A DNA stretch of 64,000 nucleotides from Nocardioides sp. (GTDB lineage: Bacteria > Actinomycetota > Actinomycetes > Propionibacteriales > Nocardioidaceae), in contig NZ_JASBRN010000040.1 of NCBI RefSeq assembly GCF_030149505.1, positions 1-64,000 on the forward strand, given 5' to 3'. The translations under genes and the position numbers were made by a program. Positions 4,059-60,437 of the stretch are shown one piece after another. Every line of letters starts with the position of its first letter. Position 1 is the stretch's first letter. The notes below the pieces were generated by a model, which made no database searches, was not told the DNA's origin, and was given only the letters and a program-made list of their open reading frames with translations.

Positions 4059-4068
4059 CCGCCGAACC

Positions 4069-4175
4069 GTCACTTCCGAACCCGCCAACCGTCAGTTCCG
4101 GACCAGGGCATCGGGCGAGCGCGAGCAGAAGTGACGGGTCGGGGGTTCAGAAGTGACGGTTCGGCGGTGAGGGCG
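4069..4175. repeat. 22-bp inverted array, locus 1
   Basis: Two left-facing units (core GTCA at 4069 and 4091) and two right-facing units (core TGAC at 4132 and 4154) repeat at exactly 22 bases. The outer arms form a perfect 17-base inverted repeat (4060-4076 with 4150-4166). The last unit covers the GTG start at 4167. The spacer is about 37 bases. Confidence 0.8.
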
Positions 4176-16431: not shown

Positions 16432-16443
16432 CCCCGGGACGGC

Positions 16444-16503
16444 TGACCCGTCGCCACTTCGGGGCTCACCCGTCGCAACTTCGCCGCTGACCCGTCGCAT
16501 CGA
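16444..16503 (+). repeat. 22-bp array, locus 2 (left flank of AbiEi-type gene)
   Basis: Three forward units start at 16444, 16466 and 16488, exactly 22 bases apart, each with [T]GACCCGTCGC near its start. The units face towards the AbiEi-type gene. The mirror-image array is at 17603-17690. Confidence 0.8.
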
Positions 16504-16566
16504 CGGAGCCAACCCGCGCCGTGCTTGCCGAGCGCACGCGCACAGGGCAGGCAGTCCTGACAGGCT

Positions 16567-17556
16567 GTGGATGAGCAACGACGTCGTACGCCGGAATTGG
16601 GCAACCTGCTGGCCATGATCGACGAACCCGGGGACGGGCCGCGCGACCTTCGCGACCGGCCGTTCACGACCCAGCAGGCCCTCGACGCCGGGATGACGCA
16701 CGACCAACTGACGCGCGCCGTGATGTCACGCTGGCTGCGGCGACCGGCCAAGGGCGTCTACGTCCCGGCGACCCTGGAGGACACGCTCGAGACCAGGTGC
16801 GCCGCCCTGAGCCTGTCCGTGCCGGACGATGCCTTCATCGCCGACCACTCGGCGGCCTGGCTCATCGCGGGCGACCGGGCACTGGTGCCCGGCGACCATC
16901 TGACCGTCCCCGAGGTCTCCTGCTTCCGGACCCGGACCGGCAGCCGACTCCGACGCCACCAGGTGCGCAGCGGGGAGCGGGAGCTCAGGGCCGACGAGAT
17001 CATGGAGCTGGGCGGTCTGCAGGTGACGACTCCGCTGCGCACCGCGCTGGACATCGGTCGACTCGCGCGCAACACCGACGTCCGGCTGCACGGGATGGAC
17101 ACGATGCTCTCGATGGGGGTGTTCACGCAGGCCGAGTTGCTCGCCGAGGTGCCGCGCTTCAAGGGGTACCGAGGTGTCGTCGGTCTGCGGGCTCTCGCTC
17201 CGCTTGCCGATGGCGGGTCCCAGTCCTTCGGCGAGTCCGCCCTACGGCTGCGCTGGCACCAGGCACACCTGCCGTGGCCGACGACCCAGCACCCGGTGCC
17301 GGGCACGCCGTACATCCTGGACATCGCGCTGCCCGAGGAGACGTTCGGACCCGAGTACGACGGTGAGGAGTTCCACTCGAGCCCGGACCAGAAGGCACAT
17401 AACGCCACCCGTCGCCGGGAGATCCACCGGGCCGGCTGGACCGTCGAGGTCTTCCGGAAGGAGCACGTCTTCGGACCGCGCCAGAACGCCGAGCGCCGTC
17501 TGCGGGCGACGTACGACGCCTTGGTCCTGGGACGGACCAGCCGCACCTACCTGTGA
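16567..17556 (+). CDS. AbiEi-antitoxin-like N-terminus with DUF559/Vsr-like C-terminus
   Basis: A 329-residue protein. The first 60 residues resemble the AbiEi-type winged helix (FTTQQALDAGMTHDQLTRAV followed by LRRPAKGVYVP). The middle resembles AbiEi C-terminal regions. The end resembles DUF559/Vsr-type nuclease folds, with acidic residues in ILDIALPEE and PEYDGEEFH and a conserved GWTVEVFRKEHVF end. It may be a regulator, a nuclease, or both. No AbiEii-like toxin gene is adjacent. GTG 16567 is the longest start, and ATG 16615 is equally plausible. The gene lies between inward-facing 22-bp arrays, and its end overlaps the convergent synthetase gene by 10 bases. Confidence 0.75.
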   Translation: MDEQRRRTPELGNLLAMIDEPGDGPRDLRDRPFTTQQALDAGMTHDQLTRAVMSRWLRRPAKGVYVPATLEDTLETRCAALSLSVPDDAFIADHSAAWLIAGDRALVPGDHLTVPEVSCFRTRTGSRLRRHQVRSGERELRADEIMELGGLQVTTPLRTALDIGRLARNTDVRLHGMDTMLSMGVFTQAELLAEVPRFKGYRGVVGLRALAPLADGGSQSFGESALRLRWHQAHLPWPTTQHPVPGTPYILDIALPEETFGPEYDGEEFHSSPDQKAHNATRRREIHRAGWTVEVFRKEHVFGPRQNAERRLRATYDALVLGRTSRTYL

Positions 17557-20258
17557 GGACCTCGGCGCGGGCCACCGTCGATCCGCACGGCTGCAGGTCC
17601 GTCGGGGCTCGCCGAGGACGCGACGGATGACGCCCGAAGACGCGACGGGTCAGCCCCGAAGATGCGACGGGTCAGCGCGGACAGGTGCGCCACGAGGCGG
17701 TGGACCAGGACGCCGACGACCAGGGAGGCGAGGGTGGCGAGGAGCGGGTGGTCGACCTCGAGATGGGGGTAGACCTGCCAGTGGGTGAGGTAGATCCACA
17801 GCGAGGCGGCGGCGAGGGCGCTGACGAGCGGGACGAGGGCGGCCGGCACCCAGGTGCGGCGCACCCAGACCAGCGCGAGGGCGGCGACCAGGACGACCAG
17901 GTCACGGACAGGGTCGGTGAAGAAGCCGGGGACGGTGAGGACGAGCAGCGCCGAGACGACGGCGCGGTGGGTCGTGGTGGTGGCGCGGGCGGCAGCCCAG
18001 CCCAGGGCGACCAGCCACCAGACGACCTCGGCGCGGTGGATGACGTCGCCGCCGCGAAGCACGACGACCTCGTAGCGGGTCAGCAGCCCGACGAGGGCCA
18101 GCACCACCGGGAACCAGAAGGGGTGCCGACGGTCGAGCCGGTGCACCGCGGGCACGGCGGCCAGCAGCGCCAGCCCGAGCACGCACAGCACGAACGCCTC
18201 GATGAACCAGAAGTGCCAGGCCGGCTCGGTCCACGACCGCGGCCCGACGAGCTGGTTGACGAGCAGGGCAGTGGCCCAGGGGTACTGCCCGGTCAGCAGC
18301 GTCACGCCCCCGATCCACAGCACCGACGGCACGGCCACCCGGGCTGCGCTGCGCACCAGCGCCCGCACCCGCTCGCGCCGCTGCGGCGACCCCAGCGCGA
18401 ACCGGCCCAGGTTGAAGCCCATCAGCACCAGCAGCAGGTGCGCGCCGCCGGTGAGGTCGAGCAGGTTGCCGTGGGTCCCGACGATCGCCACGATCGCCAG
18501 CGCCCGCAGCAGCACGCCGGTCTCGACGGCCCGCCACCCGCGCGGTGCCCGCCGGGCCGGCGCGGCGACGAGGGTCCCGACCGGGCGCAGGTGCCAGTCG
18601 TCGGGGAGACCGCCGAGCAGCTGCTCGAGCCGCACCGACGCCTCGACGTACGACAGGGAGTCGCCGCCCAGCGAGGCGAAGGAGTCCCGGGGCGCGACCG
18701 GTCGGCCGAGCACCGCCGAGAGCACCCCCGCCGCGGACGGCGAGGAGGCCGTCGCGGCACAGGAGCCGCCGGCCGTCACGTACCGCTCGGGGCGCCGGGC
18801 CAGCGCGGCGACGCGCTGGCGGTCGGGCTTGCCGGAGGCGAGCAGCGGCCGCTCCTCCAGGGGTACGACGGTGACGGCCGCCGCGGGGACCCCGGCGAGT
18901 CGCGCGGTGCGGGCGACCAGGTCGGCGAGCCCCTCGCGGTCCGCGGGGGTCGAGGCCGCGCGACCGACCGGGTCGGCGCCGTCCGCGGGAGCCTGGGCAG
19001 CGGCGGGCGCGGAGGCGGGCACCGAGGTGGGCACTGAGGCGCGCACGACGCCGACGGCCACCCGGTCCCCGGCGTCCACGACGAGCGCGTCGACGCCCTC
19101 GGCGGCGAGCCCGGACTCGACCCGGTCGAGGTCGACGCGCAGCCCGAGCACCTTGGCGAAGCGGCTGCGCCGTCCGACCACCCGCCACAGGCCGTCGGCG
19201 TCCTGGCGCCCGAGGTCGCCGGTGCGCAGCTCGGTGAGGTCGTGACCGCGGGCGAGGTCCTCGCGGGTCTCGGCGTAGCCCATCATCACATTGGGCCCGC
19301 TGTAGACCAGCTCCCCGACGCCCTCGGGCTGGCCGGCCACCGGCTCGAGCCGCAGGTCGCCGCCGGGCACGGGCACGCCGACGCAGTCGGGTCGTTCGGC
19401 GGCCAGGTGCGGCGGCAGGTAGGCCATCCGGGCAGTGGCCTCGGTCTGGCCGTACATCACCACGAGGTCGAAGCCGCCGCGCTCCCCGCGCTCGGCCCAG
19501 GACCGCACGGTCTCCGGTGCCATCCGGCCACCGGCCTGGGTCAGCACCCGCACGGAGGGGTGCTGCCCGGCGGCCAGCCGGGCGGCGGCACCGGAGACCT
19601 CGAGCATCTCGAAGGAGTGCGGCACACCGGCCACGCTGGTGACGCCGTGGCGGTCGACGGCCGTCCAGAAGCAGGGGTCGACGACGGAGGTCCCCGTCAG
19701 CACGACGGCCGCGCCGACGGCGAGGTGCGAGTGCAGGACCGAGAGCCCGTAGCAGTAGTGCAGCGGCAGCGCGGTGACGCCCACGTCGTCGGGCGTCAGC
19801 CCGAGGTAGTCGGCGATCGCCTCGGCGTTGGCCTGCACGGCCCGGGCGGAGAGCCGCACGAGCCGCGGGCTGCCGGTGCTGCCGGAGGTCGACATCAGCA
19901 GCGCGAGGTCGGGGTGCGGCGCAGGTGCGCCGGGCCGCGCGCCGAAGCGCGCCTCGAGCTCGTCGGTCGACCGGGCCGGGTCGGTCAGCAGCACGGGCCG
20001 GCCGACCGCCAAGCAGGCGAGGTAGGTGACGACGTCCTCGAGCCGGGGCCCCACCGCCAGCAGCAGCGGCTCCGCCACCCGGGCGGCGTGCCGGTCGGCG
20101 GCCGCCTCGACCAGCCGCGCCAGCTCGGCGTACGACGTCGTGCCGGCCTCCCCGAGCAGGGCCGGCCGCTCCCCGTGCCGCCCCAGGCCCCGGGCCAGGG
20201 CGACCCCGCGCGGGGACGCGTCGGCGTCCTGGATCGCGCGCACGGGCAGGAGGGTCAT
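17547..20258 (-). CDS. Adenylation-carrier-acyltransferase fusion, iron-box controlled
   Basis: A 903-residue fusion. An AMP-binding adenylation domain comes first (LLMSTSGSTGSPR, YGQTEATARM, ELRTGDLG, final lysine in ASGKPDR). A carrier domain follows, with the phosphopantetheine serine in LGGDSLSYVEA near residue 550. A membrane acyltransferase-3 domain of about ten helices ends the chain (AIVGTHGNLL, HWQVYPHLE). It should activate an acid, hold it as a thioester and pass it to a membrane-associated acceptor. An IdeR-type box over its promoter suggests siderophore or envelope modification under iron limitation. Its last 30 codons or so are made of 22-bp repeat units. Confidence 0.82.
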   Translation of the reverse strand: MTLLPVRAIQDADASPRGVALARGLGRHGERPALLGEAGTTSYAELARLVEAAADRHAARVAEPLLLAVGPRLEDVVTYLACLAVGRPVLLTDPARSTDELEARFGARPGAPAPHPDLALLMSTSGSTGSPRLVRLSARAVQANAEAIADYLGLTPDDVGVTALPLHYCYGLSVLHSHLAVGAAVVLTGTSVVDPCFWTAVDRHGVTSVAGVPHSFEMLEVSGAAARLAAGQHPSVRVLTQAGGRMAPETVRSWAERGERGGFDLVVMYGQTEATARMAYLPPHLAAERPDCVGVPVPGGDLRLEPVAGQPEGVGELVYSGPNVMMGYAETREDLARGHDLTELRTGDLGRQDADGLWRVVGRRSRFAKVLGLRVDLDRVESGLAAEGVDALVVDAGDRVAVGVVRASVPTSVPASAPAAAQAPADGADPVGRAASTPADREGLADLVARTARLAGVPAAAVTVVPLEERPLLASGKPDRQRVAALARRPERYVTAGGSCAATASSPSAAGVLSAVLGRPVAPRDSFASLGGDSLSYVEASVRLEQLLGGLPDDWHLRPVGTLVAAPARRAPRGWRAVETGVLLRALAIVAIVGTHGNLLDLTGGAHLLLVLMGFNLGRFALGSPQRRERVRALVRSAARVAVPSVLWIGGVTLLTGQYPWATALLVNQLVGPRSWTEPAWHFWFIEAFVLCVLGLALLAAVPAVHRLDRRHPFWFPVVLALVGLLTRYEVVVLRGGDVIHRAEVVWWLVALGWAAARATTTTHRAVVSALLVLTVPGFFTDPVRDLVVLVAALALVWVRRTWVPAALVPLVSALAAASLWIYLTHWQVYPHLEVDHPLLATLASLVVGVLVHRLVAHLSALTRRIFGADPSRLRASSVASSASPDGPAAVRIDGGPRRGPHR
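17603..17690 (-). repeat. 22-bp array, locus 3 (inside the fusion gene's 3' end)
   Basis: Four units at 17603, 17625, 17647 and 17669, in reverse orientation relative to locus 2, each containing GCGACGG-type cores. They encode the C-terminal tail TRRIFGADPSRLRASSVASS of the synthetase fusion and face back towards locus 2. Confidence 0.8.
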
Positions 20259-50090: not shown

Positions 50091-50201
50091 TCACTCGGCG
50101 CCCGTTCGAGCGTGACTCGGCACCCGTTCGAGCGTGACTCGGCACGTGTTCGAGAACCAGTCGAACCAGCGCCGACTCACCCTCGAACCAGCGCCGAGTC
50201 A
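50091..50201. repeat. 22-bp inverted array, locus 5
   Basis: Three right-facing units (50091, 50113, 50135; GTGACTCGGCACCCGTTCGA type) and two left-facing units (cores at 50176 and 50198) with an exact 22-base period face each other across a few bases. The array fills the gap between purL and arfB. The left-facing units closely match locus 7 at 61930-61977. Confidence 0.85.
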
Positions 50202-50204
50202 GCG

Positions 50205-52454
50205 TCAGGCGAGGGCCGCGGGGAGGGTGGCCATCCAGGTCGAGCGGACCTCGAGCAACGCCAGGTCGAAGAGCCCCTCGACGGCGAGCGAGTCGCCGCC
50301 GGTGGTGCCGAGCTGGGCGACGGGTACGCCGTGGCGCGCGGCCAGCTCGGTCAGCCGGGCGACGTCGCCGTCCGGGACGGTGACGAGCACGCGGCCGGTC
50401 GACTCGGAGAACAGCGCCACGAACGGGTCCTCGTGCACGCCGGCGAGCGAGACCGCCGCGCCGGTCATCGACGGCAGCGCCGCCTCGACCAGCGCCTGCG
50501 CTAGCCCGCCGTCGGAGAGGTCGTGGGCGGAGGTGACCAGGCCGACGGCCTCGTGCAGGAGCGCGGCGAGCGCCTTCTCGCCCGCGAGCGAGAGCGCGGG
50601 CGGGCGGCCGCCGAGGTGGCCGTGGACGACGTGCGCCCACTCCGAGCCCGACAGCTCCTCGGCGGTCGAGCCGAGCAGCAGCACGCGCTCCCCGGCGGCC
50701 GACCACGACGACGGGGTACGACGGGTGACGTCCTCGATCACGCCGAGCACGGCGACGACCGGGGTCGGCAGGATCGCGGTCTCGCCGGTCTGGTTGTAGA
50801 GGCTGACGTTGCCGCCGGTGACCGGGGTCCCGAGCTCGGCGCAGGCGTCCTTGAGGCCGCGGCAGGCCTCGGCGAACTGCCACATCACCGACGGGTCCTC
50901 GGGCGAGCCGAAGTTGAGGCAGTCGGAGACGGCCAGCGGCACCGCGCCGCCGGTCGCGACGTTCCGGTAGGACTCGGCGAGGGCGAGCTGCGCCCCGGCG
51001 TACGGGTCGAGCTTGGCGTAGCGGCCGTTGCAGTCGGTGGAGACGGCGACGCCGAGGTTGGTCTCCTCGTCGATCCGGACCATCCCGGAGTCGGCCGGCT
51101 GGGCGAGCACGGTGTTGCCGCGCACGTAGCGGTCGTACTGGTCGGTGATCCACGACTTGTCGCAGAGGTTGGGCGAGGCGACGAGTCGCAGCACGGTCTC
51201 GCGCAGCTCCTCGGGCGTCCCGGGCCGCGGGAGCGCCTCGGCGGCGTCGGCCTGGAGGGCGTCCTGCCAGTCGGGGCGGGCGAAGGGGCGGTGGTACGTC
51301 GGCCCGTCGTGCGCCACGGAGCGCGGCGGGACGTCGACGACCCGCTCGCCGTGCCAGTCGATCTCGAGCCGGCCGGTGTCGGTGACCTCGCCGACGACGA
51401 CCGCCTCGACGTCCCACTTCGCGCAGATCGCCATGAAGCCGGCGACGTCGTCGGGCTCGACGACGGCCATCATCCGCTCCTGGGACTCGCTCATGAGGAT
51501 CTCCTCGGGAGCCAGCGTGGAGTCGCGCAGGGGCACCCGGTCGAGCTCGACGCGCATGCCGCCGTCACCGGCCGAGGCGAGCTCGGAGGTGGCGCAGGAG
51601 AGACCCGCGCCGCCGAGGTCCTGGATGCCGGCCACGAGGCCCGCGGCGAAGATCTCGAGCGTGCACTCGATGAGCAGCTTCTCCATGAAGGGGTCGCCCA
51701 CCTGGACGCTCGGCCGCTTGGCGGGGCCGTCGGCGTCGAAGGTCTCCGAGGCCAGCACCGAGACACCGCCGATGCCGTCGCCGCCCGTGCGCGCGCCGTA
51801 GAGGATGACCTGGTTGCCGACGCCGGAGGCCTTGGCCAGGTGCAGGTCCTCGTGCCGCAGCACGCCGACGCAGAGCGCGTTGACCAGCGGGTTGCCGAGG
51901 TAGGAGGAGTCGAAGACCGCCTCGCCGCCGATGTTGGGCAGGCCCAGGCAGTTGCCGTAGCCACCGACGCCGGCCACGATCCCGGGCAGCACGCGGTGGG
52001 TGTCGGGGGCGTCGAGCGGGCCGAAGCGCAGCGGGTCCATCACGGCCACGGGACGCGCGCCCATCGCGAGGATGTCGCGGACGATGCCGCCGATGCCGGT
52101 CGCCGCGCCCTGGTAGGGCTCGACGTACGACGGGTGGTTGTGCGACTCGACCTTGAAGGTCACCGCGTAGCCCTGGCCCACGTCCAGCACGCCGGCGTTC
52201 TCGCCGATGCCGGCGAGCATCTTGCCGACCGGGGTCTCCTGCGGCAGCTCACCGAACTGCTTGAGGTGGACCTTGGAGGACTTGTACGAACAGTGCTCGC
52301 TCCACATGACCGAGTACATCGCCAGCTCCGACGAGGTGGGACGCCGCCCGAGGATCTCGCGGATCCGGGCGTACTCGTCGGCCTTCAGGCCGAGGTCGGC
52401 CCAGGGCTGCTCGCGGTCAGGGTCCTCGGCGGCGACGGCCACGGTGTCCAGCAC
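50205..52454 (-). CDS. purL: Phosphoribosylformylglycinamidine synthase subunit II
   Basis: A 749-residue small-type PurL that makes FGAM with PurQ and PurS. Motifs: [16 protein letters not shown] at the N-terminus, [26 protein letters not shown]-type loop ([14 protein letters not shown]), and [13 protein letters not shown]. The length fits the three-subunit bacterial enzyme, and purQ and purS are 2-3 kb upstream. GTG 52454 has TAGATT six bases upstream and appears leaderless. Confidence 0.96.
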
Positions 52455-60280: not shown

Positions 60281-60296
60281 GCCCCCATCGTCCCGC

Positions 60297-60437
60297 TGAC
60301 CCGTCGCCAGGTTGCGGCCGACCCGTCGCCAGGTTTCATGACCGGGCAGCGTGAAACCTCGCGACGGCTCACCTGCAACTTCACGACGGGTCACCCGAAA
60401 CCACGCGACGGGTCACCCGAAACTCCGCGACGGCTCG
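60297..60437. repeat. 22-bp inverted array, locus 6
   Basis: Two right-facing units (60297, 60319; TGACCCGTCGCCAGGTT type) and four left-facing units (cores at 60368, 60390, 60412, 60434) repeat at exactly 22 bases. They face each other in the gap between divergent genes, so a terminator role is excluded for most of it. Confidence 0.85.

Follow-up and report, generated by a model that had tools for sequence, protein, structure and literature searches.

A nuclease gene family enclosed by inverted repeat arrays in Nocardioides and its relatives: a possible partnership of enzyme and repeat

Why, in a soil bacterium, does a gene for a predicted nuclease stand between two arrays of short repeats that face each other? 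The question comes from a stretch of 64 000 nucleotides of a Nocardioides sp. genome (contig NZ_JASBRN010000040.1, positions 1 to 64 000), hereafter the window. The gene encodes a 329-residue protein with an AbiEi-like winged-helix part and a C-terminal Vsr/I-Bth0305I-like nuclease domain. An earlier reading, made from the sequence alone (the sequence-only reading), had noticed the gene between inward-facing arrays of 22-bp units, and had likened it to the pairing of repetitive extragenic palindromic (REP) doublets, or REPINs, with REP-associated tyrosine transposases (RAYTs). We find that the flanked-gene observation is real and more general than this single window, and that the interpretation as a whole is partly supported. 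The results suggest a partnership between a nuclease family and repeats that spreads the repeats through bacterial chromosomes.

The 22-bp arrays enclosing the window gene (Table 1) are beyond chance. The inverted repeat scores 30.5, whereas the highest score among 943 random 1-kb window segments is 19.0 and that among 27 control genes is 15.5. The window has 9 occurrences of GCTSACCCGTCGC with at most one mismatch, where 1.66 would be expected, and 0 of 100 shuffles reach 9.

The same genome holds six homologues of the window protein. Five of its homologues were found by the repeat search to be enclosed by inverted repeats, 43 to 78 nt long, each with its own sequence. One locus, L004, passes with a score of 21.5, yet no tandem array is seen there by eye and the repeat search gives short pairs only, and it is not counted as a clear case. 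The distant paralogues L003, L005 and L006 (26-27% identity) sit in different, palindromic repeats such as AAGGTTCATCGGCCGGCCGATG.

Within the genus, homologues are present in 95 of 98 genomes. We scored 35 loci, namely 30 listed genus loci (one per genome, the window included) and the five paralogues, and 34 of them score above every one of the 943 random segments. The single failure, L041, lies at a contig end. Cross-pairs of this comparison reach 223.5, due to syntenic flanks in opposite orientation, and were excluded as a threshold. A second set holds 80 named loci, the best-ranking among 381 relatives found; of these, 74 score above all 1034 control segments (18.5 at most). This set overlaps the former in species. 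The concern that homologues in close relatives might lack such arrays was therefore not confirmed.

Sampling across the class gave a homologue in 170 of 246 genomes. Among loci outside the genus with full flanks, 17 of 37 pass, as opposed to 18 of 1332 cross-pairs; two of the original 39 loci, L205 (which scores 29.5) and L211, were dropped for short flanks. The core of these repeats is often TGATCATG or TGATCTTG, and in Nocardioides it reads GASYCGKC. The few annotated homologue records are labelled “DUF559” or “hypothetical”.

Protein and repeat type

The two arms of one locus are alike, and the repeat sequence differs from locus to locus. Across 74 loci, repeat similarity correlates with protein similarity (Mantel r 0.271, with 0 of 999 permutations as high). 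In 67 of these loci the repeats are more similar to those of the nearest protein neighbour than to those of the remaining loci. Repeat type is tracked best by the winged-helix part of the protein, with a partial Mantel value of 0.225 (0 of 499 permutations), compared with -0.056 for the nuclease part (455 of 499). As for paralogues, six pairs from the same genome have repeat similarities of 7 to 17, where nearest protein neighbours have a median of 22 and the rest lie at about 10.5.

The distances between repeats cluster at 21-22, 31-32, 42-44 and 62-64 bp, which correspond to whole helical turns. The last class includes doubled 31-32 spacings. At 10.5 bp the phase coherence is 0.684, and at 11 it is 0.659. 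Such spacing would be expected for proteins placed side by side on one DNA face.

The family matches the PFAM domains AbiEi_4 and MTES_1575/DUF559. For the window protein both fall below the curated cut-offs, at 24.5 of 25 and 23.4 of 38.2 respectively, and AbiEi_4 is found in 52 of 76 proteins at E 0.01. PADLOC reports AbiEi at E 1.4e-15. The AlphaFold2 model has a mean predicted local distance difference test score of 90.8. Its residues 9-215 match the AbiEi antitoxin 6y8q (Z 10.3 over 181 residues), and residues ~220-321 match I-Bth0305I (3r3p) with Z 12.2 over 96 residues and a root-mean-square deviation (rmsd) of 2.5, and Vsr with Z 10.5. Foldseek matches I-Bth0305I (3r3p) at E 0.037 with probability 1.00. 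By predicted fold and PADLOC, the call of a winged helix joined to a Vsr-like nuclease, first made from the sequence, holds. Mitoribosome chains and nucleotidyltransferases, with fold Z of 6-10, were not taken as kin.

E223, D252, E263 and H270 are present in all 76 aligned proteins. We take the catalytic order of EDxHD nucleases to be E, D, H, D, as the family name suggests, which would correspond to E223, D252, H270 and residue 279.

The protein thus resembles the AbiEi antitoxins of type IV toxin-antitoxin systems in the fold of residues 9-215 and in the PADLOC match, and differs from them by the fused nuclease domain. Among the neighbours in the window, no AbiEii toxin gene adjoins the gene, and the AAA_21 match lies in the ABC ATPase.

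AbiEi antitoxins repress their own promoter via inverted repeats. The arrays could likewise serve autoregulation only, with the protein binding them to control its own gene and perhaps its neighbours, the nuclease acting in defence or repair, and the arrays spreading passively. The AbiEi-like part agrees with this, as does the winged helix being the part that tracks the repeats, and all but one of the 34 passing loci (33) have an upstream arm that ends at most 150 bp from the start codon. However, there is a matching downstream arm too. Of the same 34 loci, 10 have this arm starting no later than the last base of the stop codon, and 19 have it starting within 10 bp.

Gene-less arrays and places of the gene

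Arrays without a gene are best seen in a relative, G064. Units of its type number 192 in G064, 70 each in G013 and G096, one in G058 and none in the window's own genome (G000), G098 or G016, with at most 1 for the reversed-pattern control. We read 22 arrays in 20 stretches of G064, picked from the matches listed, where 56 of 62 same-strand distances equal 22 bp. Both arms are present in 10 of the 22 arrays, always + then -, which is the layout of the gene-bearing array. Furthermore, the 12-mer core is commoner in genomes that carry it in their gene-flanking array (14 vs 13 genomes, one-sided p 8e-5), where genomes were typed by eye and three of 30 were omitted (G000, counted 4; G096 and G097, outside the count). 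In the sister genome G098 there are 32 matches to the type of the window gene, 8 at its own gene and most others in five further clusters.

The arrays of G064 tend to have their edges where genes end. Their edges fall at the stop of an open reading frame (ORF) of at least 150 codons in 14 of 22 cases on the left and 12 of 22 on the right, against 0.14 per edge at random, and 19 of 22 arrays have one or more edges at an ORF stop. Four gene-less arrays also fold better than shuffles (z -4.0, -6.6, -2.5 and -3.5). Both results are what ordinary intergenic structures would give, such as terminators or sites for nucleoid proteins, with the gene there by accident and recombination homogenising the repeats. 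Inverted repeats are enriched around this gene family relative to random segments, and the gene's arrays match dispersed ones by type, which together make this very improbable.

As for the window's site, the gene lies between an upstream ABC-transporter ATPase gene, here called fbpC after the label of the sequence-only reading, and a convergent AMP-binding/acyltransferase fusion gene (17685-20258) with its 3' end facing. The gene is inside arrays at this site in the window and in L098. Among 14 genomes read, fbpC adjoins the fusion gene in four, none with the nuclease gene there, so the position of the gene is not fixed across the relatives. The spacer is short and clean in G016 and G058, an empty state of the site. 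In G013 and G064 it holds an array with two arms and no gene, similar to the arrays around the gene that each of these genomes has at another place.

These gene-less arrays at the window's site weigh further against autoregulation alone, as do the matching units in other parts of a genome, which number as many as 192, and the 19 of 22 arrays edged by an ORF stop. We regard that explanation as rather unlikely.

In one clade, ten genomes have the gene at one place, with a class-III aminotransferase gene on one side and ABC-transporter genes on the other. This conserved place indicates that the gene is mostly inherited vertically. Here the repeats vary between species while left agrees with right, and the downstream flank of one genome is 72-75% alike. 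The site is clean in G025. In G096 and N. acrostichi the orientation of the gene is inverted, an outcome that recombination between the arms would give. Four further loci (L262, L263, L264 and L266) have the 3' end of the aminotransferase gene followed by differing repeat or hairpin elements, read by eye, in the manner of a hotspot.

In the tree, the window gene is nested among genes whose other members lie at or beside this aminotransferase/ABC site, as one clade with support of 99/97 in a 6-row set and 99/99 in a 16-row set. Its pairing with L099 is less sure (90/83). The window genome keeps the aminotransferase gene, and no such nuclease gene is found in the following 1500 nt. The nested position together with this gene-free site indicates that the gene has moved, and one relocation, to the window's site, is supported by the tree. 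The idea of a small mobile element needs qualifying, as free hopping does not fit the one conserved place in ten genomes.

A plain homing endonuclease gene would offer a further account, in which the nuclease cuts gene-less arrays and repair copies the gene in, the arrays being pre-existing targets of their own origin. It draws on the nuclease domain having a homing endonuclease as its best match, and on the two relatives with gene-less arrays where the window has its gene. The likeness to I-Bth0305I extends to an intergenic location, where relatives have either nothing or an array alone. The differences are the AbiEi-type N-terminal part, the arrays of the gene's own repeat around it, and a phage collection without a match. 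A phage origin was rejected on that last result, with 7 weak records from plasmids. In G064 arrays far outnumber genes (192 units and four protein matches), the position of the gene is conserved in ten genomes, and the array sequence changes along with the protein, which is needless for a passive target. Homing as the whole explanation is unlikely. It shares much of the evidence with the reading we prefer, and could account for the rare moves of the gene itself.

A candidate unit of enzyme and repeat

We prefer to see the gene and its arrays as one enzyme-plus-repeat unit that would work like a REPtron with an unrelated enzyme, and assign this a probability of roughly 60%. The winged helix would read the short repeat unit, and the whole-turn spacing would let several molecules bind one face of the DNA. 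The Vsr/I-Bth0305I-like domain would then nick or cut within the array or next to it, or at its hairpin. Repair of the break from another array would copy array sequence in, and this copying would homogenise both arms around the gene and spread gene-less arrays elsewhere, mostly to gene ends. Occasionally the gene itself may be brought into an array that is already there, and the window's site would be such a case.

A broader version is more tentative, and we place it somewhat short of even odds. It holds that there is a second, independently evolved class-wide REP system, in which AbiEi/DUF559 winged-helix nucleases copy and maintain their own arrays across actinobacterial chromosomes by cut-and-repair, with no transposase involved, and every paralogue has a repeat dialect to itself.

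Several results weigh against the enzyme-plus-repeat reading. In terms of generality, the loci were picked for resembling the window protein and the sets of loci are not independent but overlap; six of the 80 named loci fail (L116, at a contig end, L128, L133, L144, L149 and L165), and so do 20 of the 37 outside the genus. In one other genus (L220-L230) just 3 of 11 loci are above the threshold, and two of these by a narrow margin. That genus has many homologues per genome, at least nine in the richest, mostly without enclosing repeats; they may represent another branch, or the arrays may have been lost.

The covariation is small in size and may come in part from shared ancestry. In one of the six same-genome pairs, L107/L109, the repeats are more alike than with the nearest outside protein (13 vs 7). 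In the window's own genome the repeat type of the gene hardly occurs away from its locus: of 14 matches, 5 lie in the gene's arrays. The remaining 9 each carry three mismatches, and genomes of other types have a similar number of matches (3-7). Array gain, loss and replacement are seen at sites, yet no fresh insertion with defined ends, and array edges vary.

As for the protein, its binding and cutting, and the copying by repair, are inferred. The rmsd of the AbiEi match is large, at 9.7 over 181 residues, and none of the Foldseek matches to PDB entries reaches E 0.001. Residue 279 (17401-17403) is N in the window protein and D in the other 75 of 76. Its sister L098 keeps D279, in a genome with more dispersed units. 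Our guess would be that the window copy is losing activity and, with it, its array family.

The comparison with REPIN-RAYT pairs proved apt. The parts of the RAYT literature used here (PMC2817692, PMC8266576, PMC3116915) describe inverted copies of a short repeat flanking the gene, dispersed gene-less repeats, covariation of repeat and protein, and orthologues that mostly keep their place. The flanking copies, the covariation and the mostly kept place are found here as well. Dispersed cognate repeats are clear in G064, G013, G096 and G098 but not in the window genome. The differences lie in the enzyme, which is an AbiEi-like protein with a Vsr-like nuclease and not the HUH/Y1 transposase that defines RAYTs, and in the repeats, which are tandem arrays spaced by helical turns and in which, by eye, no conserved GTAG head is seen.

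A hidden Y1/RAYT transposase as the mobiliser was rejected for the ten genomes searched, G064 among them, where Y1_Tnp (RAYT-type) is found in none and the Y1_Tnp control was positive in 5 of 14; other transposase families lie outside that search. CGTC-type REPs are described, in the part of the source consulted (PMC3733652), as dispersed palindromic repeats mainly of Alphaproteobacteria with the dedicated enzyme not found, and the word “Actinobacteria” is absent from it. By description, they resemble the present arrays in their dispersal without a known enzyme.

In titles and abstracts of the open-licence literature (DUF559 literature covered in part, preprints outside) we found no link between DUF559 or AbiEi proteins and REP-like repeats. 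REPs and REPINs are widespread bacterial repeats, for which the sources consulted propose the HUH transposase RAYT as the spreading enzyme. Here a RAYT-like arrangement surrounds a family with an unrelated nuclease, present in over two thirds of the class genomes sampled. Proteins labelled “DUF559” or “hypothetical” gain a testable substrate, the many matched pairs of enzyme and repeat are material for reading a recognition code, and the spread of repeats without a transposase becomes a directly testable question.

Other features of the window

The left array of the window gene begins ten bases past the stop codon of fbpC (16431). The coordinates of the arrays, the gene and its parts are collected in Table 1.

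Table 1. Repeat arrays, nuclease gene and protein regions in the window.
Feature	Position	Strand	Remarks
Left array	16442-16507	+	Three 22-bp units GCTSACCCGTCGCNNCTTCGGG starting at 16442, 16464 and 16486; third degenerate in its tail
Gene, 329-residue AbiEi-like winged-helix protein with C-terminal Vsr/I-Bth0305I-like nuclease domain	16567-17556	+	GTG start tentative
Winged-helix region, residues 30-72	16654-16782	+	Variation best tracks repeat type
Nuclease domain, residues 216-322	17212-17532	+	
Right array	17611-17676	-	Three 22-bp units (17655-17676, 17633-17654 and, innermost and degenerate, 17611-17632), inverted relative to left array
Gene-less two-armed array	4060-4172		Type flanking paralogue L002 (GCCGAACCGTCACTTCTGAACC and variants); read by eye
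Gene-less two-armed array	50120-50212		Third type (GACTCGGCGCTGGTTCGA); read by eye
Gene-less two-armed array	60290-60437		2 + units and 4 - units; another tail type (GACCCGTCGCCAGGTT); read by eye

The sequence-only reading had seen the same two-armed structure, without a gene, elsewhere in the window. The layout does recur, in the three gene-less arrays of Table 1, but these are not copies of one repeat type. A common type for all window arrays was rejected, as their units differ from the gene-flanking ones in tail, or in core and tail.

The array at 4060-4172 forms a near-perfect hairpin, with a fold z of -6.6 as single-stranded DNA, and the paralogue of the same repeat type lies on contig C79. 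At the intergenic site 60290, an alignment read by eye has three differing array types in the window, G098 and G016. The one filling the site in G098 is similar to the type of the array at 50120-50212.

Lastly, the CAGGTTGC-tailed unit of the array at 60290-60437 flanks neither the window gene nor any of the five paralogues, and is perhaps a remnant of a paralogue since lost, or of a former specificity. It is dispersed in its own genome, with 11 matches vs 1 for the control, on G000 contigs C58, C61, C75, C85 and C88.

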